Origin: Dermatophagoides farinae
Lineage: Eukaryota > Arthropoda > Arachnida > Sarcoptiformes > Pyroglyphidae
DNA: 64,000 nt
Reading direction: 5' to 3'
NCBI RefSeq assembly: GCF_024713945.1
Contig: NC_134681.1
Location: 3,111,001-3,175,000 of the forward strand
The notes under the pieces are model-generated. The model ran no database searches and was not told the origin of the DNA. It saw nothing but the letters and a program-made list of their open reading frames with translations. Of the stretch, positions 1-17,841 are shown piece after piece. How positions within the stretch are numbered: position 1 is the stretch's first letter; the number at the start of each line of letters is the position of its first letter. The position numbers and the translations under genes are program-made.

Positions 1-2406
1 CAAAATCAAAAGTTGGACAAGAGAAAAAAAATTTCTTTTCTCATTATTTTTCAAAAGAAAAATGACTAACGACGATAATGATGATGAAACACTTGAAACG
101 CATATGAATCAGAGATGAGAATGATGATGATCATGACAACAACAAAGTTCATTGCTTTGATTTTCATTGTTAATTCGTATATATCCACTTCAATTCTGGT
201 CTTTCTATCTCAGTTTTTTTTTGGCTGGTTGATGCATTGAATTTGTATCCAAATGCGATAAGCAGATGAAAACATTGCCAAAGAAATGAAAATGAAACAA
301 AAATAAATAAATTAGCTGCAGACAAAAACAGACTTTTTTCCTGATCAAGAAAAAAAAAACGAAAAAACGAAACCCGTGAATATCGAAAACTTTGAAACTA
401 AAAACTAACTTAATAATGGCTAACCAAGCCAACTACAGCCAGGAAAAATTTGTAGTTATTTTGTTTTCTGGAACAAAACAAAAAAAACAAATTTCAAAAA
501 CAAAATTAGACCCGAAAAAGCTGTTGAAAATTAATTAATAATTTATTTACAATAAAAGAAGAACAGAACGCAAAATGCAAAACCACGAATCTAATAATGA
601 CACACACAGAAAGAGAGAGACAGAAAGATAGCAAATGGTTAGCTAAAAAAATAATGAGACAGGAGCATTAAGCAAAACAAAAAATAGTTACAGAAAATTA
701 CTTCAAGTCGACACACGCAATGGAAAAATGCATTGCTTTGGATTGTTCACACACACACAAACAAACAAACCATTGAAGATGATGGCCAAGTTTACTTTCT
801 GGCCGAAAAGAATTCTATATGATGATGGTAAATCATAATAACAATAATGGAATGAAACTGAAAACAAGTCATCTCCAAAAAAATGATGATGAAATTTTTG
901 TTAAATTTCTTAATTTCTAAATGTTTCATTCATTCATTCTTGTCGGTTTTTGTTTTCATTGATTAAATTGAATCGATTTTTTTTTACAAAAAAAAAATTG
1001 ATGCTGCCACCACCATTGGCGAAAGACAGACAGATTGATTGAAAATCGATTGTGTTTCATACATGGCACAATGTTTGGTGGCAATATTATTAGCCGAACC
1101 CAAAGAGTTGTTGGTTGGTTGGTTTGAGAAAACCAAAAATTGCAAACTCTCATTGATCATTGGCAAAAAAATGGAATCTTTGTGAAAACAAAAAAGTCAG
1201 CAGAAAGAGAACATTTAGATCGATAATGATGATGATGATGAGCAAAGGGAAATAATTAAAAAGTTATTATATAAAATGTACATAAAATAAATGATGATGA
1301 TGATGATCAGGAGAATCTCAAGAGATCAAATGAAATGAACCAAAAAAAAAGAAGAAAAAAAACATTTACAAATTCGAATCATCATTCGAAAGTTTCATTT
1401 CATTTCATTTTATCATCAGGGAAAAAAGTCAACTTTTCATATAACTAGGGCAAAACCGGGGTGGTGACGATACCAGTTTCAATTGGAACACACTAAACAC
1501 ACATACACACACAATACAGCAACGAATGAATAGGGATCAAACAAAAAAAATTAGGAAAGCAAAGCAAAGCAAAAAAAATACTAGACAGGAAATAGTCAAA
1601 ATCTTTTTTTTTTGTTTTACAGACAATTTTTTTTTGTTTGAAAAAAAAACTTTTTTTCAAAATAGAAAAAAAAATCACAATGGACGAAAAAAAAGAATAT
1701 GAAACATTTCATTTGACATTCATATATTCATGTATACCGGGTGAGGCTATATTTTCACAAGGAACTAAAAATCATTTTCTTCATCTAGGAATCGGAAATT
1801 TTTTTTCGGAATCTTTTTCAGAAAAAAAAACTTTTTTTTATGAGCCAAAAAAAAAATAGTGAAAAACAACAGGCCGGGTAAATTTTTTTTTCTATATTTC
1901 CAAGGACAAAAAAAGTTTTGTTTTTCTGTCATCTCTCTCTCTCTTTGCTTATTGTTTTGAAGTTTTTTGGTTCATCCACAACATCATCATAAAGAAATCA
2001 ATGATCGAATGTGTGTGTGTGTGTGATGAATAGAAATAGCAAAACACCAATGATGCGAAACAAAACAACAACAAAAACAGAAAACAAAGTTGTTGTTGTA
2101 GTTGTTTTGTTTGACATGACTAAACTTTTAGGGAACCATTTTTATTGGTTGGTTCAATAGTTTATATTCGATATGAATGATGATGAATAGATTCTTCAGA
2201 AATAGATTTATTGGAAAAACTTAGAGCAGAGTAGTGAGCTCACAGAAAGAAAAGACGCAAACTTCTCTCTCTCTCTCTCTCCCTCTCTTCTATTACTATG
2301 CTATGGTATTATGAAATGGTTTTTCTGTAATAAAATTGTTAAAAATGATAATAAAAATGTTTTCGAAAAATTCGTGTCAAAAACAACAACAACAACGACA
2401 ACTTAC
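1..2406 (-). other. Plexin intron 6 (continues off the left edge)
   Basis: Downstream of the donor at 2406 on the minus strand I find no further plexin exon. The stretch holds A/T homopolymers, GAT/ATC triplets (about 1227-1305), a TC tract (2264-2287) and a short GT tract near 2011-2024. Short ORFs here are low complexity. Confidence 0.6.
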
Positions 2407-3304
2407 GTGTATCCGTCTGTATTAATGGTAATGTATCGGTTGATGGTGTTGGACAAAATACACCGGTTGGTGAACGTGTTGCATTCGTTGTCTGTGATTT
2501 ACCATACATTGTGAATACACAAAGATAATGGCCATTCTCTGTCATTGGTAAATTATCGATGACAAGATTGAGCTATATTTTTTTTTGCAAAAAAAAAAAT
2601 TGAAAATTGAATGATTATGTTTTGTTTCATCACCAATTCACGCACACACAGACACACACATACCGTTCGTGTTGTTGTTCGTTGTATTTGAGCGGGATTT
2701 ACATTTGAAATTGTTGTACATTTACCGCTTTTATATGAAAGCCAATATAACGGATCGGATGTTGCTTCGGCACAATCATTTCGAATGGAACATCTAAAAT
2801 GAACGAAAGTTAGAAATTCAAACCACATATCTAAAGAGGAAATATTAAAACAAAAACATACTTATTTTCTAATGAACACCAACCACAATATGGATCACGT
2901 GCACCAAGACAGTCCATACAAGTACGATGTTGATGACATTCTTGTACTTTGACCATTGTCACTCGCCTGGTTGTCATGACATAAAGATAACCATGAGCCA
3001 CGAACATATCCGGATTGATACGATGTCCTTGTTGTATGACGATATCGGCAAATTCATATGCTTTTATCGATACACGTGATTGATCCATATTAATCTGGTG
3101 ACGTTGTCCTTCAATCACTACTTTTTTCAAATGTCCATCATTGGTACCCAAAAATGCGACTGAATAATCATTAGTTGCAGTTGCAGCCACTGATGTAAGT
3201 AGCACATTATCAAACATTATTGCTGGTTCGGTTTCAATTGGATTTGTTGTTCCTAATGGTTGATTGACATCCATACCACAAAAATCTTCTTTTATTTGTA
3301 CTTG
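2407..3304 (-). CDS. Plexin coding exons 4-6: end of Sema, PSI, start of IPT region
   Basis: Exon 4 (3304-2862, acceptor TACAG, donor AA|GTATGT) finishes the Sema domain (NDGHLKKVVIEG, YLYVMTTRRVTMVKV) and starts the PSI domain. Exon 5 (2793-2664, acceptor TTTTAG, donor ACG|GTATGT) supplies the remaining PSI cysteines. Exon 6 (2572-2407, acceptor AAATATAG, donor C|GTAAGT) continues into a beta-rich segment ending VFCPTPSTDTLPLI. Introns are 68 and 91 nt. All phases match. Confidence 0.88.
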
Positions 3305-6300
3305 CTGTATTTTCCATTAGAAAAAAAAGAGAGAAAGAAAAATTCAAATTAGTGAAAATGAAAACCAAATGAAAAATTGGAATGAAAGCAAAGGATTGAG
3401 AAAATGGAAACAAATTGAATTAACAAACAAAGGAAAGAAAGAAAAAAAACCATTATGAAAATCATCCTATTGTAGAATGGATATCATGAAGAGAGAGAAA
3501 GAAAAATAGAAATAATCAAGTGGATTGATTCTCGAGAAGATTCTCTCTCTCTCTCTCCGTGTGTTAATGCATTCATTCTAGTTACAGTTGTTGTTGTTGT
3601 TGTTGTTGTCGTTGAAACTCTTTTTCTTTCTCTCTCAAAACGATATATATTGTTCCTGGAACAAAAAACGTGTTGTTGTTCATCTTAATATAAACAGTAG
3701 AGAGTGAAACACTTGAAAAATAATTGTAATAATTAACCCTTTGCTCTCTCTCTCTCACTTTTGCTGTCCGGGTATATTTTTTTATCCAAAAACAGTGAAA
3801 AATACAAAAGTCTGTACTTTCAAATGTAATGAGTCGGGTGATGTATGTTTGTTCGTTTTTAAATTGGTGAAAAACATACACCGATTACACACATAACATC
3901 CGAACATTTTTTTTTTTTGGAAATTATACAGACAAATTATTATTATTGTTATGCGACAACAATAATAAAAAAACAAACAAACGTGGAACAATTGTGAATT
4001 GAATATTGAATGAGTGAGTGTGGGTGAACGAATGAAACAAAACGGAAAAAAAATTCTGGACCAATCATAAAGTGACATTATGATCGTGGTGAGGCTGGTT
4101 CAATGGGTAGCAAGAAAAAAAAATTTATTGCATATTCAGCAAATGATTTTGTTTATAGAATATATAGAGTATAGAACGTACGATGGACATCAAAAGAAAT
4201 GAAATGAAATAACCGAGAATAATAATTTTTCTGCTGACATCAATAAGAACAAGAAGAAAAAGAATTTATCCAGAAATTCTTGTGTGTGTGTGTGATGATT
4301 TTTTCTATTCACTCAATTCTTTTGTTTGCTATTTGCTTCTCTGCAAATCGCGTGTCATCAAGGATTATCGAGTGCTTTTTTCTTGCCCCAGCCGTTTTTA
4401 TTTGCCTATTCTTAATCGACATTCTAAAAGAGTGTTCCGTACCAAAAAAGTAAAAAATTTTCATTTTGTTTGATTTCCAATGAAACAATGACGTAAAAAA
4501 CCGTAATCGTATGAATGAAAATGGATGATGAGGATGGTGATGTTTCCAAATATTTTCAAATATATAGAGAGACACGACGAGGGTATATTATTTTTGAGTA
4601 TCTAATTCTGTACACAAACACACACACATATTGGACATTATCTTAGCGCTGGTCAATGGAAATGGCTGGCTGCTTTTATTGAAAACTTTTTGGTTTTCGA
4701 TTTTTCGTTTTTGATGATTAAGACAAGGATGATGATGTTGATGATGATCACAAATCGAAATGTTAAAATTCTAATGATGATGATGACCAACGATATATAT
4801 ATATAGTCATAGTCATCATTGGGTAATAATAGTGAAATTCAATTGAGTAAGCAAAAAAAAAAGGGAAAAAGAAGATAGAACTTTCTCTCGGTGGCTTTAT
4901 CGTCGTCGTTATATCGTGACAATAGCGCAATGAAAAACAAAGCAAAATTTTCTATCCAAATGATGATATTTAAAATAAGAATCCTGATGGAAAAAAAAGA
5001 AAGAAAAGAACAAAAATCCAATAATGTCATCAACGACAACATTCATTTTCATTTCATTCTTGATCATCATCATCATCATCGTCATCAAAACCATAATAAT
5101 AAAATAAACAACAACAACGAAAAAAAACGCAAGAAGAACAAAAACAAAATAACAAAACAAAAAACAAAACAGAAAATTTGAAATCTTCGTCACACACACG
5201 ATAATGGAAACATTTTTGGAGTCTGTATGATGATGATAATTCGTTTAATTATAAATCGATTTTTTTTTGTTTTGTTTCACACATTCTTATCATCATGAAT
5301 GTATTGCTTTGAAAAAAGAAACAACAAAAATGATGTGAACAAGAGAATTCAATATAATTCAAGAATGGAATATTATAATCAATGTAAATGGATAGATAGA
5401 TAGAACAAACGAAAAAAATTTTAGGAAATTTTCCCGGAAATTTTTTTGCCCATAAATTTTTAGGATAAAAATTTTTAGGGAAATTTGGTTTTTTTAAACC
5501 ACGCGCCGGCGGCTACTGCACTAGTTTAAACTGGAAAATATTAGGTATATGTGTGTGTGTGAGTGTGAAAATTTCTCTTTTACATAATATCCAGGTATGG
5601 GTGATTATTTCACATTCATTATGATCATCATCACCATAATTCACACACAATAAACAGACATAGACATTTACTAGACATATACCAATTCAAAAAGAAGTAG
5701 CATCAATGCAGACGATGTTCGAATTCGACCAGTCCATCATCAATGGTATAAATACCGACATTCGACAACATCAAACTGTGGTAATTTGGTGGTTTAATGA
5801 CAGAAGAAAAATATACAGTTTTAAATTTAACGTGAAAAAAAACTTTTTGTTCACCTGTATCGGATTTCAATCATCTATTTTTTTCTGTTTCGAGAGAGGT
5901 AAGAAAATTTTGACAAATACCCAAGTTTTCATCAATCTAAACATATAATTTTCACCATCTTATTTGGTGATGTTATCTATTTTGAAAAGAAGAAATTTGA
6001 AACCACGAACGAAGATGAAGTTCAAACGAATTTTGGGTCGATTACGACATTCAATTCGTCGTCGTCGTCGCAATCATGGCTACTATAATGACGAAGATAA
6101 TTGTCAATTACAAAATATATTTGAAAACGAACACTTACAAGATGGATTAATTTTTCCTAAAGAAGAAAAACAAAAAGTTCCACCGAAACCGAAGCCTATC
6201 ATTACTGATGATAATGATAAAAAGGGTTTGCAAATTGTTCAATTGAAAGAACAACCACATCATTGTTATTATCGTCATTGTTCAGAAAATTATCGATTAT

Positions 6301-9300
6301 TCATTCGTGATCGTTATTCAAATGAATCGTTTCTGATCAATGGTGGCTCAGATATCTCATTGTTTCCAAATGAGATTCAATTTTGGAATCATTATCGATC
6401 GAAAGAATTGAAAAAATGGCAAAAACAATGCAAAAAACAGTACGGCGTTCAAATCAATGGTGCCAATATGGTATTTGGCGAAAGCCTTATTGGCACTGGT
6501 GATGATTGCAAGAAACAAGAACAAATGAAAATCACTGGAAAATTTTTCATTGCATTGGATTTTGGTTTTGGCCATGAATTTGTTTTTGAATTTTATCTTT
6601 GTGAAACTGAGTACCCGGTGATTGGTGCAGATTTTCTTGCTCATTATCATCTACTGCCGGATTATCTTTGCCAACAATTGATTGATTTTGATTATCATCG
6701 TAAAGTTGATTGCCAACTATTTCCTACAGTAGTGGATCGACGTAATGTACGTAGTTTGGTGAACATTCGTCAACCACCAAGCGAAATATGAACGAAACAC
6801 GAAAATTTTTCATCACAATCGCGTGGCCTTTGAAATTTGATATCGATCGATCGAATGATTTTTTTTCAATTTCAATTCAATTCATGTCAATTTTTATATT
6901 CTTGACCTCTAGTAGTTTGTAGTTACAATAATAAAAATCAAAATTCAAAATTTATGTGTCAAGATGATTTTTTAATAAAAAACAAATTCTTTTTGAAATA
7001 TTTATGTTCACTCCATTCGAGTAGTCGTGTTTTCCCTGCACTAGAATAATGCGGAAATTAAATGAATTGTAAACAGAAGAAACGAACGAACGAACCAACC
7101 ACCACCTCTTTCCTTCCTCGAGTTTGTTCTCGGTTTCTGAATATTGAGAATTGCTTTTTTTAGTTAGCTTTCTCTCGCTCTCTTTTTAAATCAAGAGGCT
7201 GACGATTGAATGAATAAAAATGAAATGAAGCCAACTGGAATAATTGTCAATTCGAGTGAAAAAATGCATAGAACCTGTATTGTTGTTGTTGCTGTATTGC
7301 GCCGATTAAAGAGAATTTGCCAGATACAACACAGACACACAGTGAAAAAACGATTCTTGAAACTTTTTCTTCTTCTTCCTCAAAGCTCTAGACAGTGATT
7401 CTGATCAAAGAAGAATAAATGAAATTATTGAAAAAAAAATAAAAAGAAAAAAGTCTTCACGAGACGTGTTAAACGTAATAACGATGAATTTTCTTTCTTC
7501 GAATAATTTTTAGTCTCACTATTAATTTAATATTGATTGACATGCGAAAGTAGGCAAAAAAAAAACGACAAACGCACGAACACATAAACACACACAAAAA
7601 AAATGAGAATTCTAAATCAATTTCATGTGTTCATTTTGGTCTAAGTATGTATCACAGCAAATGAAATAATAAAAAAAAAGTTTCAATGTAAAAAAGAAAT
7701 TTGATCCAAAAACATAAGTTGAAGCTCCGTTTGTCAAATTCATATGTACAACAACAATAATTAATTAATTCAATTCACATATAACGTAATAAAATGGAAT
7801 ATATATAAATAAACGAAAACCTCGATTTCGGGATTTCAGGATTTCGGTTCGTTTTTTTTTTATTCTGGTGAAGGACATAAAGCAAATAAAGCTAATAAAT
7901 AATGAAACTGTTAATATGTATGAATGGGAATTGAATAGAAAAAAAAACGTAGTAAAGTAAATACATTCTATCTACAATCCACCACAACCACTGCTAGATT
8001 GATTAAAAATAAACGAAATTGATCAATGTTGATCAATGATGATTGAGTGTATGGAATATTAACCAATTTCAATGTTTGATTATTTGTTTTTTTCTCAACA
8101 TATAGAATTATGCTTGAATCAAAAACTCATTATTGATTCATATGTTTAATTTCTTCACTTTCATTCATTACGGTAGTAGTGCCGTTTATATATCATTGAT
8201 TTTCAATGATCCATACTCAAAAACAAGAGTAAAAAATTTGGCTAATTTGATTTTCATTTGATACAAAAATCACAGTTGTTGTTGTTTTTGTTGTTGTTCT
8301 TAAATTGCAATTGATTTGACTATTTCGTTTGTGTGCGTTATGTAATATAATAATATGATCCTTGTCGAGCTGCAATGACAATCAATGGTCAATGTGGATC
8401 GTAGTTTTTATAATAATAACTGTGTTGTTAGTGTGTAACCGAATAAAAAAGAAATATAACACACACACAGAAACAGAAACAGAAAAAAGCAAGATTTGTT
8501 TTCGACTTTGAAATATAAAGAAAATGATTTTTCTTTCCTTTTTCTGTTTTCGCTCATTTTCGACATCGACATAATCATCATCATCATCATCATCGTGCCC
8601 GTGTATCGAATATAGAGATTATCGAATAAGTTTTCTATTCCCGTTTTTTTGGGTATTGAATTCATGTCTGTATTTGTTCTGTTTCGAGCAAAAAGAGAGA
8701 GAGAGAGAGAAGAAAAAACGATCCAGACCCAAAACAGCAACAAACTTTGAATCAACATTTTTTCGGAAAACATGGAATCAACCAGAGAAATTTGAGCGAA
8801 TAATATAAAGTGTGTGTGTATGTGTGTGCATGTGTGCACCAATTGGACAAATCAACACAACGAAAAAGAAAGAGAGAGAGAGAAACCTAATTATTAGCGA
8901 AACCAAAAAACGAAACAGAGAATGGGAAAATAAATATCACAAGGAAATGAATAAAAATAACAAATCCGAGACAGAGAAAAAAAAATCTCGAATAACAAAT
9001 TAATCAATAATAACGATAATAATATTGAGCAGAATCGAAAATGGCAAAATCAAATCAAATTCGAATCATGGTCTGGTTCATGAATTTCGAAATGAAATGA
9101 AAGAATGATCCAAATGTGAATGTGTGCTATTTATTTTTTTTTTTGTTGCATTGCATTCATTAAACGATGCCGTTTGTTTTGTCAGGATCATGGAATCTTT
9201 TTTTTCTGTTTGTCTAATGAATATTCCATCATTCATTTCACTTAATGATGTTTTGAATGTTTCCAAAAAAAATCATCAATCGGATTGAAGAAACAAAAAA

Positions 9301-12300
9301 AAGAACGAATGTAATGATGATATAGCTTCAGGGCTATTCATATAGAATGGAAAAAAAATTTCACCCGGTTTTTTTATTCATTTAACAACACAAATCTAGA
9401 CATCCACCAAAAAAAATCATTCATTTCAATTCATTAATTCAACATTTCACAATAATAATCGATCACAGAAAAAAAACCACAGACAACAAAAAAAAATTGA
9501 GGCTAATCGACGAAACAAAAAAAAAACCGAAAGAGCAAAGCTTCAAAAAAATCATTATCATTCAATTCAATTCAATTCGATTTGATTCGATTTTTCGTCA
9601 TTTCATTCACATCATCATCATCATTTTCGCGGGTAAATGAAAAAGTTACGATCGGCCCGGAAAAAAATTCGACGGATATATTGATTTGATTCACTAGAAA
9701 TAACAGAACCGATCAGGAGAAAAAAAACCATTCCATTCAAAAGCTCCAAGTTTACGAGAACATTTTCTGTTGGATCAAAAAAAAAAACAGAATAAAAGAA
9801 AAAAAACAAAATCAACAAAATTGTGACAAGTTTTTCTTTGGCGACGACCCCATTTGACAACCGAAACACATAAAAAAATCAATATCATAAATCCCATTCA
9901 AAGAGTCAAATCAAATAATAAAAAAAAGGTTTGAGTTTTCGGTGCTTGATCTTTTTTGATACTACACATACACTATCATCATCATCATTTTTTCAGGCTA
10001 ATTTATTTGTTCTTGTCGTCGTTTATCGTCCATCACCCGTTTATTGTGTGCGTGGATGATGGAATGAAAACAATAACGAAAAAAAAACCGAATAATTGTT
10101 AATCAGAATGTTGAACAAATTGGCCGCATGCGTATAGAGAGAAATATAAAAAAAAGAAAGTTTTTTTTTCATCATTTATCGATTCGATCAAAAAGTGTGA
10201 TTGACACGAATCGAATCGATAAATAGAAAAAAAAATTAAACCGGGTATTGTTTGATTTGTCGGAAACATTTTCTGTGTTTGTTTCTCGTTTTTTTTTCAT
10301 GGTGAAAAAAAATTCACAAACACCGTGGTAATTTATCTCACATCGAATGAATATCTTGTTGCCTTTCTGTTGTTACACTTTTATTGGAAAAAAATATGGA
10401 AATAACTTGATTAGACTTTATTTTTTATTTTGATCAAGATTATTATTGTTATTATTAAGGAAGAGGATCTCTGTTTCCACCAAACGATCCAGGATCAACA
10501 ACAACAACAGTGAAAACAATTTGGAAAAACAATTCTAAACACACACACACACGGAATTGAGGCAATGAACCAAACCGTATGTGATAAAAAAACTTTTGCA
10601 CATGAAACACATGAAAAGTCAATGTGTATTTGTCGACTAGAATACAAACGGCCATATTATTGTTATTTTGGTATTCGCAGTTGTTTTTTTTTCAATTTTG
10701 AATATACCATTTGTTTGTGTGTCACAGCTGAACTGAACGATAGTAGTGGGGAGGTGGTATATACACATTATTTTCATTGTTTTTCCACATAATATGGTTA
10801 TTAAATTTAATTTAATTTTTCAAAAAAAAAAATTATGATAATCAATCGAACCAAGGAGAAACAACACAAAAAAAATTATCATCCACAAAATTACGATTAA
10901 TTGATTGATTATCAATTGATGAAAAGTGGATTTGGAAATCGAGATCTCGTCTCAAAACACTATCCAAAAAAAGATAAAATTTTCAATTTCAATAATAACA
11001 AAAGACTTGACTAATCAATCAAGAAGGATTATAAAATGATCATCATCATCATCAAAAGCTCAAAGAATGATAATTGATGAAAAAAAAATTGAAAACATTT
11101 TTAACCATTCATAAGTGCGATTGATTCTTTTTTTTGTGGTCAACAAAATTTGTTTCTCTAACTCTGGAGAAAAAAAATGTATTCCATAATCATCAAAAAT
11201 GTCCACAATTGTGTCACCATCTTCATATTGATGGCCATCATCGTTACGCAAGGTGAGTGTTGTAAATTGTTTTCAATTTAAAAATTATAAAAAAAAAATT
11301 TCATTTCATTTACAAAACACAGTACAACAAGCAAAAGCAGCCACCACAACAGCCGAAGAAGATAAAATAAAACAACAATATCTTGATGAGGCTGAAAAAA
11401 TTGATGAAAAAGCAAGAAAATTGATTGAAAAATTTGAAAATAATAAAAATATCCAAAATCAAACTGATTTAGATGATCAAATATGGCGTTTGAAAACGGA
11501 AATAATTGAATTGGAAAAATCGATACGATTCATGAAAGAAACCGATATACGACAAACTGATCAATGGAATTTTTCAATCAAACAATTGAAAAAACATGAA
11601 ACCAATGTCAACGATATGATTGAAATGCTACAACATCATTATAATTTGGCTTTTTCCCTATTATTGGATCGAAAATTATTAGCCATCACCATTGTAATAA
11701 TCATTGTTTCATCAACATTTTTTTGATGAATTGACAAAATAAATAGCTCTTATTATAGAGAGAAAAAACAAAGATTACTCAAAAAAAAAAAAATTTTTTT
11801 GACATTGGATTCCGGTTCATTAATGATTACTAATCAAATAAATAGATAAGGAAAGGTGTTTGATTGAAAAGAGATTGAGTGTGATTGTCGTTGCTTGCTA
11901 TGTATGATATTGAAATCGTATGCGTATGCGTGTGTGTGTGTGTGTGTGTGAGTGTATGATCAATAAATCTGATAATCTCATCCATCAATAGTTGGTGAGA
12001 TAAATAAATCACTACCACTCAAATACAAGATCATTCTACTATTTGCAACCATACATTAAACATCATCAAAATCATAATTATTTTAAAAATTTGTGAGAAA
12101 AAAATGATGAAAACAAATTTCATTTTGGTGGCCACCGCCATAATTATGGTCATTTCATTGGTTACAGTCAATGCTGCCAATGGTAAGTGTGTAAGAAAAA
12201 AATTCTTGTTTTTTTCAAACTAAAATTTTTATTGTTTACCCAAATCAAAACCGAATACCCCTCAAAAAAAAGGAGAACAAAAAATGAAAGAAAGACAAAA

Positions 12301-15300
12301 AAAATTACTCGATGAAGCTAATGATATGGTGAAAAAAGCAAATGACTGTTGGAATGAAAAGGGTAAAGGCAAATTTGATGAAACAACATCAACATATAAA
12401 GAATATTATTTGCAAGTAATGGAAATTTCGAAATATGTTTACGATATTGAAAAAACAACTGATGACAAATATCTTGATATTTATGAGAAAGATATGCATA
12501 ATGATGAGGATATATTACGTGGTCGAATGTCTGATTTAGGCTGTTCAACCGGTGGTGGTACTATTGCAATCAATCTCAACACAATGACCGCTATGATTGC
12601 TATTTGTATGATGATGGTAATGAATTTTGTATTTTAATTCTGAACAGAAATATCTTGAAACTTTAAAACTGAAAATTAAAATAAAATTTTCCTTTATCGT
12701 TTTATAATGTGATGACGTTGTTTAATTTCAAAAAAAAAAATCGAATCAAACTCAGATTTATAATCAGAACTTGAATGTTGATGTTCTATTGATGTTATAT
12801 CAGATTACATTTTTCATATTAATCTCCAAGCATCATAAAAAGAATATAATATAATATATACATCGATGAAAAATGAAAATCACAGCCATGATAATAATCC
12901 ACATCAACGAAAAAAATGTAGAAAAAAATAGTGATTCACTTCACTTCATCCTCATTTTAATTAGCCAAAGAGATTTTCGAAAAAAGATTGGATCCAAAAC
13001 GAAAAAAAAATCCACAAATAATCATCTATTGGAACTATCAATCTCGATGTGATCGGTATCTAGTATCTAGTGTCACTATGACGACGACTATTATTACATA
13101 CCAGAAATGAAAATGCTAATACTCGCTTTGTGTGTTTGTTAGTCTGGGTGCGTATAATAAAAAAAAAATGCAATATAGATCTTTATCCTAATAATAACCT
13201 GGGCTGCAATAATAATAATAAAGATGAAAGTTAATCTCTCTCCTTTTTTGTAATGAATGTCGTAGTCGTCCTAGTCGTTATTTGAAAAACTGGATAAGAA
13301 AGATTGAGAACCACAAATAGCAACAACAACAACGACAACAACAAAATGAACTGAAGAATCGAGAAATTGAATGTATTCCATATTTTTTTTCAATAAAATG
13401 GAACATGTGTTTTCTCTCTCGTGCACATTTGATGTAAAACTTTTAAATGTTTGAAACGTGTCGACTATAATACGTGTATATATGTGTAATGTTCATCAAA
13501 CAGCAACTAGAAAATCGGATTTTCATTCATTCATATTTTTTTTTCTTTTGATTCTAGCTTATTGACACAAATGTGAATAATGAAAAACAAAACGAAAAAA
13601 CATTGAAATTCCGAATTGAGAAAAAAAACAGACATAGAATTTCAGTCACAATCACACACACACACACACACATAATGCTTCTTCTATTTGGTTTTCAATT
13701 TCATCATCATCACCATACATAATATCCATGATGATGACAATGGGTTTTTTCTCATTTCCCATTTTTAACAACAACAACAACAACAGCAGCAGTAAAAATG
13801 ACTTTTTTTTCTGTCATTGGAATTCATTTCCTGTATGAAAATAAAGCTCAAAGCTCAACAAACAAAAAACACAGACACAGCAGCAAAAGAAAAATATATT
13901 CTTCATTCTTCATTACATTTTCTTTCTCTCACAGCGTGTTGATAATGTTTATATTTCACAGTGAGAATATAAATAAATACCAATATCAGACACACACACA
14001 CACACACACACACACACGACAGGATATTGTTATTCTACCTGATTTAATTCAATTTGAAATGTTATATTGTATTGTGATGTGATGGATGAGAATAAAATGG
14101 ATGATGGTATTGTGTGTGTGTGCAACATAGCAAAAGAAAAAACCAACCAACTCACTCGCTCGAAATAAAACATTTTCATCCATCCAACTTTAGTTTTTTT
14201 TTAATAGTTACTAACACATAGTGGGGGGTGTCAGATAGGTAGGTAAAAAGTTGTATTTTCATTTTAGTTCCAACAACAAATCGCTCTCCTGATTCCTGTT
14301 TGATTTTTTTTTTTTTTTTTGGTAACATCAAGCCATGATAAAGCAAAAAAAAAGTGCACAGCATTTTGTAATATTTATATAGGCATCTTGTAATGATAAA
14401 TCAATGATACAACGTCCAAATAATTATTGTAAACAAGTGGAAAAATTTGAAAATGTAAAACTTGCACTAATAATTCAAAAACAACAACAACAATATTAAT
14501 GCAAAGATCAATTTGTTGTTCATTCATGTAAATTCATCGTGTTGTTGTTGGATATGAAAGAATTTAATACCAAACGCACACACACACAAAAGCACGAGTG
14601 CATATCATCATATCATGTAAACCAGGCGTCGGCAACCTGCGGCCCGCGGGCCGCATCTTCCATAGAGCTCTATGGGAAATGCGGCCCGCGGGCCGCAGGT
14701 TGCCGACGCCTGATGTAAACCAATAAAAACCAAACAAATATATAGCGGGCAACATCAACCGAAAAAAATACATGATAATAAATCATTGAGTGAAGACAAG
14801 GACTGCTTAGTTTGTTCTGTGTTTTGAAATAATGAAAATCATGGCTTTTTTTGAAAAAACAGACAGAAAAAAGCACTATACTAGACGTTTGAAGATTATC
14901 ATCATCATCATAATGATGAGAATAGGGATATCGATTGTAGTGTGACAGTTAATTTTCACTCATTCTTTTTCTCAAACAACAACAACGGCGACAACGAAAA
15001 CAACAAAAGGTAATTGAAAAAAGAATCGATAGAATGGGAAAAAATCGTGAAAATTAATAAAAATTGAATTATTTTGAATGTGAAAATTATTTTAGCAAAA
15101 TGTAGAAAAGAATTTCACAACTCACCGTAGGAACACATTTCTGCACGATGTTGATGAAATCCAATCCTTGCATTCCATTGCCATTGAAACAATGTTGGAT
15201 ATTTTTCGTAAATTGCCGATGAATGGTCGACAATGGATATACGCATAATGCAGAATGACTAGCAGGTCGTGGATCTTCCATGGTTTGTTCATCCACGGAA

Positions 15301-17841
15301 CGTGCAAATACCACATATAAATGATCATCATCATATCGTACGCCCGTAATATTGGCCAATTTCAATGATGGCCGTCCAATGAATGCAGCTTGTGCCAGAT
15401 TGAAATGTTTTTGTTGATGGCCTTGATGACGACATACCAGTGGTACTTCGGTATATGAATAATAATCCGGATCATTTTGACAAATACGCACTATTTGAGC
15501 AAATGAAGAAAAATAAAACAAATCAATGAATCAATCAGTTAACCATTACATTGATACATTACCTAATTTAGACATAAATGCCGATTGACCAGTATTACGT
15601 TTTTGAACGGTCAAAAAATAGCTAAAACCACGTGAATGAAATCCATAAATATATGTGATTGGATAACGATCACGTGCATATGCATTTATGATCAAACGGG
15701 TCCCGGTGCTAACACCAACCAATGCCAATTGGAATAAATCTATGAAAGAAAATAGAACAAAAAGAAAACGAATTAATAAATTGTGGATTTAGAAAACACA
15801 ACATCACAAATGAACTCAATTGAAATCCAATTCAATCGAATCGAATTCAACTAGCTGGTTTTAGAGTATTTTTTTTAATGATGTCGTCGTTGATCCAATA
15901 ATAATAGTGTTTTTTGAAACACAAACGAAAAAAAAACTAAAATAAAATTCAAGGATCATCATAATGATCGTAATAACGTTTTTTTTTTGTTTGCAATATT
16001 TGGTAAAAAATAATAAAAGTTAGCAAAGACTTACTTGTTTCAAATAATGATCTGGAACTAACAACGGGTAAATCGGATCGATATGATCCGGCGGTATAAG
16101 TGGCACCAACATATAATACTTGTTTATGTGGATCTGGACCCGGAGCAATGAATGCAACCGTCGATGCGGTGGCATTGTTCGCCACTACCGGTTCTTGTGG
16201 TTGATCAATGATACGCGAGATATTATATAAACTGTGAGCGGTACATGCACCTTGAAATAATGAACCACACGATATAAGCCATTGATGCATTTGATCCAAA
16301 ACCAATGCTTTATTGTAATAATTTGATAAACGCTTCTGCACCTCTGGCGCACAACCTTTCGATATTGGACAATCATTCGAATCTTCATATGGACCCATGG
16401 TAATTTTTTCCAATAATTTCAAACGTAAATTTAATTGATAAATCGTATTCACACCACCGATATATACAAAACCAATTGTTTCATTGATAACCATATGTGA
16501 AAAATAAATTTCCGTATTCGGTTCTTCAAAATATGTATAATTTAAATCGATAGCCCTATTAATCGATGATGTCAAGCCATTATTATTACCACCACGAATC
16601 AATGATAGTGATTGGTGTTGTTGTTGTTGTTGCTGCTGCTGCTGAGATGATGATCTATCAGCACCAGCACCAGAACCGCCGAAAAGACCATAACGATCAA
16701 ATAGGCCACGTTTAATAATTGTGTGATTATTATTATCATCATCATGATGATGATGATGATGATTCAAACATTTATTGCCCATATCATTCCAATCGCCATT
16801 TTCATATGCCATAACCAACATTGTTGATGATGATGGAAATAATTGCTGAAATGATAATATCCAAATCATTGTAATCATCGTCATCGCTGCTGAACTTTTT
16901 GTTTGTTGACGACGATTAATGATTTCAGCATTATGATGATGATGATGATGATGATATTTATTATTATTTTTCAATTCTGAGAATTGAAATTGCCGTTTTC
17001 GTTGATGATTTTGATGATCATGATGATGACTGGATTTATTATTTAACATTGATAAATAATATTGATATCGATATCGATGATCAAGATCAAATGATGTATG
17101 ATGATGGCACCAGATGAAAATATTGACAATTTTCATTAATAAATAATTTAAATTATTATTAATGATGATCAAGTAATAATGAGAATAGGCATTGATAAAA
17201 ACAACACATTTACAAAGGTAGAAAAATGTCGATAATGATGATGAAAAGGTGTTAATTAATGTTTTCATCATCATGATTATTATTATTATTGGGCACACTG
17301 TTATTGGTGAAATTGGCTTCATTTGCATAATCATTTTAAATGTTTGCAATGGCCAAAATAATAATTTCTTTATCGATCGATCTTTAATTTGATGATGATG
17401 ATGATGATGATATGTTTGTTTCAATTGTTTATGATGATGATGAGGATTGTTCATAAATGACGTATTCGTTCTATTATTGATATCATCATGATGAATTTTT
17501 GGCCTTTTTTGTTGTTGTCGCCTATTATTTGTATTCATTTCATCATCATTAGTATTGAAATCACGATTAATTTGATCAAAATCTGAGTAATAATTGTTGT
17601 TTTTATAGTTGAAAATTTCGTCATTATGTTGGATTTGTATTTTTGGACTAGAATTTTGTCGCTGATATCTCTGTTGTAGTTGTTGTTGTTGTTGAAGATG
17701 ATGAAAATTATCATCATCTTCTTCTGTTTCCGTATTCATCATCATTGTATTATTATTATGGCTTGTCGTTGTCGTCGTTTTCGATATCTGATGATGATGA
17801 TCATCATCATCATCATATAATGATGATGGTCTTAATTTCAT
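2407..17841 (-). CDS. Plexin (B-like), 5' part of gene: Sema and PSI domains
   Basis: Transmembrane semaphorin receptor used in axon guidance and cell adhesion. Six coding exons on the minus strand join in frame: 17841-16035, 15739-15563, 15490-15126, 3304-2862, 2793-2664, 2572-2407. They give 1029 residues before the gene leaves the window through a phase-1 donor. The Sema domain runs from about residue 424 to 900, followed by a cysteine-rich PSI domain with the motif CLGARDPYCGWC and the start of the post-PSI/IPT region. Intracellular GAP exons lie beyond the left edge. The post-PSI pattern (P-A-x-I, T-R, D-N-L-P, then V-F-C-P-x-P) looks closer to plexin-B than plexin-A, by remembered family features rather than alignment. 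Intron 3 is 11.8 kb and holds opposite-strand genes. Plexin identity is certain; the B subtype is moderately likely. Confidence 0.9.
5420..5545. repeat. Unclassified repeat-like block, possible Helitron 3' terminus
   Basis: Alternating T-rich/A-rich units (variants of AAATTTTTAGGAAATTTT) run into an isolated GC-rich stretch with the palindrome CGCCGGCG at about 5505-5512, followed by TACTGCACTAG then T. A GC-rich palindrome shortly before CTAG-T is what Helitron ends look like, but the stem is short and no 5' end was found. Confidence 0.25.
5747..5754 (+). promoter_or_regulatory. Candidate TATA box for the retropepsin-like gene
   Basis: TATAAATA, 216 nt upstream of the first ATG at 5970. A strong 5' splice consensus (AG|GTAAGA at 5897-5904) lies between the two, so a short spliced leader is possible. 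Position and sequence fit, but TATA-like strings are frequent in this A+T-rich DNA. Confidence 0.3.
5970..6791 (+). CDS. Retropepsin-like protein derived from an LTR retroelement, catalytic Asp missing
   Basis: Intact 273-residue ORF nested in plexin intron 3, on the opposite strand. The N-terminus is basic (RRRRR near residues 31-35) and not recognised. Residues about 110-245 follow the retroviral/Ty3-type aspartic protease layout: an active-site loop at FLINGGSDISLFP (residues 121-133), a flap-like middle, and the second conserved block YPVIGADFLAHYHLLPDY (about 215-232), very like the PILGxDFL motif of retroelement proteases. The loop reads Asn-Gly-Gly at 124-126 where active enzymes have Asp-Thr/Ser-Gly, so proteolysis is not expected. 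There is no flanking gag, RT or integrase and no LTR. A polyA signal AATAAA sits at 6930. ATG 5970 is the first in frame; 6015 is an alternative start. Domesticated gene or lone relic; an intact frame favours the former. Confidence 0.75.
   Translation: MLSILKRRNLKPRTKMKFKRILGRLRHSIRRRRRNHGYYNDEDNCQLQNIFENEHLQDGLIFPKEEKQKVPPKPKPIITDDNDKKGLQIVQLKEQPHHCYYRHCSENYRLFIRDRYSNESFLINGGSDISLFPNEIQFWNHYRSKELKKWQKQCKKQYGVQINGANMVFGESLIGTGDDCKKQEQMKITGKFFIALDFGFGHEFVFEFYLCETEYPVIGADFLAHYHLLPDYLCQQLIDFDYHRKVDCQLFPTVVDRRNVRSLVNIRQPPSEI
6930..6935 (+). terminator. Polyadenylation signal of the retropepsin-like gene
   Basis: AATAAA 139 nt after the stop codon, with another AATAAA near 6977. Confidence 0.45.
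10174..10224. repeat. Inverted repeat, 15-bp perfect arms
   Basis: ATTTATCGATTCGAT at 10174-10188 and its exact reverse complement at 10210-10224, with a 21-nt loop. Lies inside plexin intron 3. Confidence 0.7.
11030..11037 (+). promoter_or_regulatory. Candidate TATA box for the first small secreted gene
   Basis: TATAAAAT about 140 nt upstream of the ATG at 11177. Weak evidence in such A+T-rich sequence. Confidence 0.25.
11177..11726 (+). CDS. Small secreted helical protein A (mite group 5/21 allergen-like fold, tentative)
   Basis: Two exons, 11177-11252 and 11323-11726, joined in phase 1 across a 70-nt intron (G|GTGAGT ... ACACAG), encode 159 residues. Residues 1-25 form a signal peptide ending near VTQ. 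The mature part is almost entirely charged amphipathic helix: a first helix rich in Glu/Lys (EEDKIKQQYLDEAEKIDEKA), a second with DLDDQIWRLKTEIIELEKSI and a third around QWNFSIKQLKKHETNVNDM. It ends in a strongly hydrophobic tail (LLAITIVIIIVSSTFF) suggesting a GPI signal or membrane anchor. The size, three-helix pattern and spacing recall the Blo t 5/Der p 5/Der p 21 family by inspection only; the hydrophobic tail is unlike those allergens. AATAAA is at 11738. It has the same architecture and intron position as the next gene, so the two look like tandem paralogues. Confidence 0.7.
11738..11743 (+). terminator. Polyadenylation signal of small secreted gene A
   Basis: AATAAA 11 nt after the stop codon. 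Confidence 0.5.
12104..12637 (+). CDS. Small secreted helical protein B, tandem paralogue of A
   Basis: Two exons, 12104-12182 and about 12273-12637, joined in phase 1 by a roughly 90-nt intron (G|GTAAGT), encode about 147 residues. The signal peptide MMKTNFILVATAIIMVISLV ends near VNAAN. The mature chain is charged and helical (KLLDEANDMVKKAN, TYKEYYLQVMEISKYVYDIE, then YLDIYEKDMHNDEDILRGRM), with two cysteines and a hydrophobic C-terminal tail after TGGGTIAINLN, again GPI-signal-like. The acceptor is purine-rich, and three AG sites (12272, 12275, 12290) all keep frame, so the exact mature N-terminus is uncertain. The LDIYE...DIL segment recalls mite group 5 allergens; this is a visual impression. 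AATAAA follows at 12680. It lies 377 bp after gene A, same strand, inside the plexin intron. Confidence 0.7.
12680..12685 (+). terminator. Polyadenylation signal of small secreted gene B
   Basis: AATAAA 43 nt after the stop codon. Confidence 0.5.
13990..14017. repeat. (CA)n microsatellite
   Basis: About 14 uninterrupted dinucleotide units. Confidence 0.9.
14615..14622. repeat. Left 8-bp target-site duplication of the MITE
   Basis: ATGTAAAC immediately before the left terminal inverted repeat, identical to 14713-14720. Confidence 0.85.
14623..14712. mobile_element. hAT-type MITE, 90 bp, near-perfect palindrome
   Basis: The element begins CAGGCGTCGGCAACCTGCGG and ends with its reverse complement. 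The terminal inverted repeats extend through GGCCCGCGGGCCGCA to a short centre (CCATAGAGCTCTATGG), so almost the whole element can fold back. It is flanked by a perfect 8-bp direct repeat ATGTAAAC (14615-14622 and 14713-14720), the target duplication expected of hAT transposases. CAG-start, CTG-end and the CGGCAACC string match widespread animal hAT termini. It is strikingly GC-rich against the local background and encodes nothing. Confidence 0.85.
14713..14720. repeat. Right 8-bp target-site duplication of the MITE
   Basis: ATGTAAAC immediately after the right terminal inverted repeat, identical to 14615-14622. Confidence 0.85.
15126..15739 (-). CDS. Plexin coding exons 2 and 3: middle of Sema domain
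   Basis: Exon 2 is 15739-15563 (acceptor TTTCATAG, donor G|GTAATG) and exon 3 is 15490-15126 (acceptor AAATAG, donor ACG|GTGAGT), separated by a 72-nt intron. Both junctions are phase 1. Exon 2 encodes the blade segment with YIYGFHSRGFSYFLTVQ. Exon 3 opens with the highly typical plexin/semaphorin stretch VRICQNDPDYYSYTEVPLVC and continues through ITGVRYDDDHLYVVFAR and the CVYPLSTI strand. Exon 3 ends in phase 0 before the 11.8-kb intron. Confidence 0.9.
16035..17841 (-). CDS. Plexin coding exon 1: low-complexity N-terminus, signal peptide, first half of Sema
   Basis: The exon is open from the ATG at 17841, but the first 319 codons are runs of Asp, His, Asn, Gln and Met plus hydrophobic patches and do not look like a conserved domain. 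A good secretory signal begins at the Met at 16884 (MTMITMIWILSFQQLF, then ...MAYENGDW), so translation may really start there and the upstream part may be 5' UTR kept open by GAT/CAT repeats. The Sema part starts near 16570 and carries the paired cysteines of CPISKGCAPE and ISCGSLFQGAC and the strand motif VLYVGATYT. The donor is A|GTAAGT (phase 1). Confidence 0.85.

Follow-up and report, generated by a model that had tools for sequence, protein, structure and literature searches.

Scabies mite inactivated protease paralogues are mite pseudoproteases in which the catalytic residues have been lost, and Ddi1 has an active-site aspartate (Asp) and a ubiquitin-like domain. In the available text of PMC11402058, retropepsins are described as homodimers in which each chain supplies one Asp, and mammalian ASPRV1 (SASPase) as a domesticated retropepsin, that is, a retroelement protease domain turned host gene; the available text of PMC7212762 describes PEG10 as a domesticated gag-pol with a domesticated retrotransposon protease (PR). 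The gene described here, an orphan open reading frame (ORF) on the (+) strand of a 64,000-nucleotide window of the Dermatophagoides farinae genome (contig NC_134681.1, positions 3,111,001 to 3,175,000; coordinates below are those of the window), resembles ASPRV1 and PEG10 in these respects and the inactivated mite paralogues in its lost catalytic residue. It is probably a host gene derived from the protease of a PR-reverse transcriptase (RT)-ribonuclease H (RNase H) retrotransposon, with catalysis lost and the folded body kept as a binding or scaffold module.

That the gene is domesticated and protease-dead, as proposed in an initial annotation of this DNA, is supported by sequence comparison and predicted models—that is, by open relatives with the same Asp-to-asparagine (Asn) change in two further pyroglyphid mites, by monophyly of the three, by conserved lobes as against variable linkers, and by the predicted retention of the fold.

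The orphan gene, its relatives, and the lost active site

The open frame spans 5949 to 6791, 280 codons from stop to stop, so that the 273-codon ORF annotated at 5970..6791 proved intact. Translation from the ATG at 5970 would give 273 amino acids (aa), and from that at 6015, 258 aa; the latter (Met16) is the conserved start, with the relatives in D. pteronyssinus and E. maynei both beginning at its equivalent. A run of 280 codons was obtained in none of 200 intron-length order-2 Markov sequences (longest run, 245) and in none of 60 such sequences of 64 kb (longest run, 229), and a chance ORF was rejected. Composition differs across the three codon positions, as in the exon fragments of the surrounding plexin gene. 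The parts of the gene are as follows.

5970..6014, (+) strand: upstream in-frame ATG and 15 codons, either 5′ untranslated region or a D. farinae extension, not in the two annotated relatives
6015..6791, (+) strand: probable coding sequence (258 aa and a stop codon), with a start conserved in the two relatives
6015..6287, (+) strand: basic N-terminal tail (MKFKRILGRLRHSIRRRRR...), predicted disordered (predicted local distance difference test score, pLDDT, mostly <50)
6288..6371, (+) strand: strands of the first lobe together with the dead active-site loop (residues 107-134), 21/28 identical to each relative
6336..6347, (+) strand: Ile-Asn-Gly-Gly, replacing Ile-Asp-Thr-Gly in the alignment, with Asn124 at 6339-6341
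6372..6533, (+) strand: lysine-rich linker replacing the flap, little conserved across species
6534..6722, (+) strand: second lobe, residues 189-251, with IGADFLAHYHLL (6621-6656) and the orphan-specific FDYHRKV, 46/63 identical to each relative

A search of 5.8 billion proteins yielded three relatives at E≤10, namely a near-identical 273-aa copy, D. pteronyssinus LOC142645038, and E. maynei BLA29_007593. The latter two were found to have an open frame, the same Asp-to-Asn change, and a common N-terminal motif; the basic N-terminal tail, initially annotated as new, is present but only partly new, being shared in part with these relatives. A profile search returned 33 proteins at E≤1. After the same three come PR-like proteins, the best of them at 4.7e-12; those that are named belong to insects and a tick, and further astigmatid mites contribute no named protein to the 33. 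Between the window protein and its near-identical database copy (P0001) there is a single difference, Leu to Ile at residue 250 (6717-6719), where the second lobe ends. When DNA of the relatives was looked for in viral contigs, none of 115 pattern stretches was found to encode a relative. LOC142645038 does not occur in the available main text of a D. pteronyssinus stage transcriptome paper (PMC12105342).

The orphans were aligned with 20 element-type rows, comprising five PR domains of the D. farinae genome (L002-L006) and 15 of the 30 non-orphan proteins from the profile search. P0001 was omitted from both alignments (A1 and A2), and P0004, P0018, and P0019 (with RT) and P0022-P0033 (9-22% of the query matched) entered neither the alignment nor the tree. 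The 15 protein rows carry element-type PRs, although several are short uncharacterised proteins (e.g., from Temnothorax) and some could be fragments or captured genes.

The active-site loop of D. farinae reads L-I-N-G-G-S-D. The catalytic residue is Asp in 20/20 element-type rows and Asn in 3/3 orphans, with the following residue being threonine (Thr) in 18/20 and glycine (Gly) in 3/3, respectively. The second Gly and the subsequent Asp persist in D. farinae, whereas D. pteronyssinus and E. maynei have lost both (NGNSN), and no acidic replacement residue in this loop is common to the three orphans. The element flap, AANGS.I.TYG, corresponds in the orphans to a lysine-rich stretch, where the predicted models place low-confidence helices. 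Thus, Asn-Gly-Gly does stand in place of Asp-Thr/Ser-Gly, as initially annotated, and the loss extends to the catalytic Thr and the flap, neither of which was noted there. As judged from its sequence, the orphan has neither the catalytic Asp nor the flap of an active retropepsin.

Since no Pfam family was detected in the orphan ORF at E≤10, homology to retroelement proteases is argued from mite element PRs, hhalign, and the predicted fold. The search of the D. farinae genome covered 62,435,336 bases, and its copy counts are lower bounds; it returned the orphan gene once, the other protein matches being at least five PR domains (L002-L006). RT and RNase H follow the PR in 4/4 Pfam-scanned places, and the fifth place (L005) has stop codons further on; the L002 element (G000:C2:1401909-1405082) has an open pol frame of 1132 aa. 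The orphan was found to match the L002 PR with an E value of 3.1e-12, and the E. maynei relative to match the same place with an E value of 4.2e-20. Support by hhalign for retroelement PR homology was 99.4% (E 5.5e-21), and the predicted models keep the retropepsin fold, with the lobes mostly well predicted. The retroelement protease framework of the initial annotation, including second-lobe IGADFLAHYHLL, is borne out by these comparisons, and the orphan is retropepsin-like (MEROPS A2-like) by sequence homology and predicted fold. Its single copy and absence of mobility features fit a domesticated retroelement gene.

In a tree of 116 columns and 23 rows, the orphans are monophyletic (100/100), and D. 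pteronyssinus and E. maynei pair within their clade; a single orphan origin was recovered in 100% of 200 bootstrap trees. The stem of the clade measures 1.25 changes per column, against 0.35 for the inner branch and 0.10-0.14 for the tips. L002 and L006 are nearest to the orphan clade at 88/86, a value not starred by the tool, and the L006 row is itself long (1.24), so that they mark no more than a candidate donor lineage.

Constraint and rival explanations

Between D. farinae and each of its relatives (gaps set aside), the first and second lobes are 21/28 and 46/63 identical, in contrast to 8/36 and 6/34 for the linker and 22/68 and 20/64 for the N-terminal tail. Among the three species, 63/91 lobe columns are invariant; 21 of these 63 keep a residue present in at least 80% of element rows, 34 depart from the element majority, and 15 have a residue found in no element row. 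Neutral decay was simulated with the window ORF as ancestor (195 codons; kappa 1, 2, and 4; T 0.065; indels uncounted), giving identities of 0.733, 0.742, and 0.751 versus the observed 0.736. All three 195-codon copies stayed open in 0, 3, and 1 of 2000 runs, respectively, and in 3, 2, and 8 of 2000 at T 0.055 and 0, 2, and 0 of 2000 at T 0.075. In an earlier neutral run with another branch split, 1/400 stayed open at T 0.05 and 0/400 at each of T 0.1-0.3.

Several observations weigh against a domesticated retropepsin-like gene. The remaining 28/91 lobe columns vary among just three species, so that the constraint, though real, is not an extreme one. When only the 91 lobe codons are counted, neutral copies remained open in 137, 220, and 293 of 2000 runs at T 0.065, and the stop-codon test therefore leans on frame length; moreover, the open frames are partly ascertained, since the relatives came from a database of open proteins. 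Sequence comparison with the PDB gave no protease match for profile A1. The mean pLDDT values of the two models, 60.9 and 68.3, represent low overall confidence, and the model alignments contain element-type PRs, which pull the models toward that fold. Querying PDB sequences with the orphan ORF itself likewise yielded no protease, and the five hits that A1 did give, at E 0.09-0.6 (HSP70 proteins, myosin, and P450), were set down to chance. Pfam RVP at E≤1 matches 9/23 rows of alignment A2, with the window protein not among the nine.

A functionless, decaying protease fragment whose frame is open by chance would account for the lost catalysis, for the partly ascertained openness, and for the 7-15% of neutral runs at T 0.065 in which the lobe codons stay open. 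However, the same loss in three species, the contrast between lobes and linker, and the persistence of three whole frames in only 0-3 of 2000 neutral runs at T 0.065 led us to reject the young relic that the initial annotation had offered as its alternative; no trace of the remaining element parts was found in the ORF list, the upstream flank, or the LTR (long terminal repeat) search either, and such decay is very unlikely. The two lobes and predicted fold could also belong to an enzyme that continues to cut proteins through an atypical active site supplied by Asn, another residue, or a partner chain. This reading was rejected as highly improbable because all three species have lost Asp, Thr, and flap, two of them (D. 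pteronyssinus and E. maynei) the second Gly and the next Asp as well, and because the loop offers no shared acidic substitute. Equally little credence can be given to separate captures in different mites, by which the three genes would not be orthologues, in view of the single clade, its bootstrap support, and the common Met16 start and N-terminal motif.

Asp-to-Asn protomers poison retroviral proteases. Since each chain of the retropepsin homodimer contributes one Asp, an element enzyme might, in principle, likewise be disabled by pairing with a dead protomer. As a restriction factor, dead orphan protomers might pair with resident retrotransposon proteases, or occupy their substrates, and so block maturation. 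The genome does have PR-RT-RNase H elements with open frames, and its L002 and L006 PRs are the closest to the orphan clade, though supported at no more than 88/86. However, the Thr beside the catalytic residue and the flap are part of the retropepsin dimer contact, and their loss in the orphans should weaken pairing. The long orphan stem, the detection of just five PR-bearing places (a lower bound), and lobes that are conserved rather than fast-changing, as an arms race would give, also speak against restriction. Dust mites have no piRNA (PIWI-interacting RNA) pathway according to the available text of PMC5805368, which would make other controls useful. Given the lost flap and Thr and the conserved lobes, restriction in these piRNA-less mites appears unlikely.

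For the preferred reading, a domesticated binding or scaffold module, the following course is proposed. A PR domain was captured, probably by a common ancestor of the three mites D. farinae, D. pteronyssinus, and E. maynei, and catalysis would have been lost ahead of the species split, with Asp changing to Asn, Thr to Gly, and the flap to a lysine-rich linker. The lobes were retained, and the folded body would now serve in binding or as a scaffold, perhaps dimerizing via its terminal strands as before, while the basic disordered tails may target it or hold an acidic partner. Retention of the protease domain alone in at least three species after catalytic loss suggests that the retropepsin body itself is selectable by the host.

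Genomic setting

The plexin frame joins directly across splice sites 15125 and 3305, placing the orphan gene, as read from the sequence, inside a single 11.8 kb intron on the opposite strand. Plexin A is the best PDB match of the flanking (-) ORFs (E 1.5e-31), with Sema and PSI detected via Pfam.

2831..3304, (-) strand: ORF with a plexin exon that takes in the end of Sema and the start of PSI (Pfam)
3305..15125, (-) strand: PlexA-like gene intron holding the orphan gene, with GT donor at 15125-15124 and AG acceptor at 3306-3305, from sequence
15126..15530, (-) strand: ORF holding the preceding plexin exon (Sema), with Plexin A the nearest solved chain
5747..5754, (+) strand: TATAAATA, possible core promoter, weak, from sequence
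6930..6935, (+) strand: AATAAA, possible polyadenylation signal, weak, from sequence; second copy at 6974

No LTR-like pair was found at 3000-11000, where direct repeats are only of low complexity, and the 615 bases upstream (5400-6014) have no other match in the genome, the downstream flank not having been searched. No gag, RT, or integrase was seen near the orphan in the ORF list of 1-16000, judged by eye without a profile scan of every ORF. These results agree with the initial description of a gene standing alone. The TATA-like box and polyadenylation signal also described there are present, but carry little weight as evidence for a gene because both are too common: TATAAATA occurs 10 times in the window versus 6.0 expected, and AATAAA 37 times on the (+) strand of the plexin intron.

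Two further (+) ORF regions lie in the same intron, at 11232-11723 and 12008-12634, with no Pfam family above the cut-off; the latter resembles, by eye, a small secreted protein with two exons, a hydrophobic C-terminus, and a possible glycosylphosphatidylinositol anchor. In the (+) ORF at 14500-14718 the short motif CGPRAA is repeated once; this part of the intron has a GC content (0.334 at 14001-16000) somewhat above that of neighbouring stretches.

Comparison with known systems

The orphan is homologous over both lobes to mite PR-RT-RNase H elements of Ty3/gypsy-type order, such as that with the L002 PR at G000:C2:1403340-1403918; the L002 element keeps Asp-Thr-Gly, the flap, and downstream RT and RNase H, and the orphan has none of these. 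The retropepsin-like domains of Ddi1 and Ddi2 appear to be the closest solved folds to the predicted orphan models, a structural likeness only, with 8-19% identity among the matches listed. Unlike the orphan, the scabies mite inactivated paralogues have serine and cysteine protease folds, form expanded families, and are of non-retroelement origin.

Domesticated retropepsins as such are already known; no paper on a domesticated or dead one in mites was found in the open-access library searched. Together, the dead host gene, the resident element PRs, and the absence of a piRNA pathway form a set in which retrotransposon restraint can be tested against another job.

ASPRV1 is a weak profile match from the element-type PRs (E 0.0025), and its origin was probably independent of that of the mite orphan. 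The available text of PMC11402058 describes it as a catalytically active enzyme that processes itself and carries a Gag-like domain, in contrast to the orphan without catalytic Asp, and that of PMC7212762 describes PEG10 as having Asp-Ser-Gly, gag, and a frameshift, whereas the orphan stands alone. Thus, according to these texts, the two domesticated retropepsins compared here both keep the active-site Asp that the mite gene has lost.
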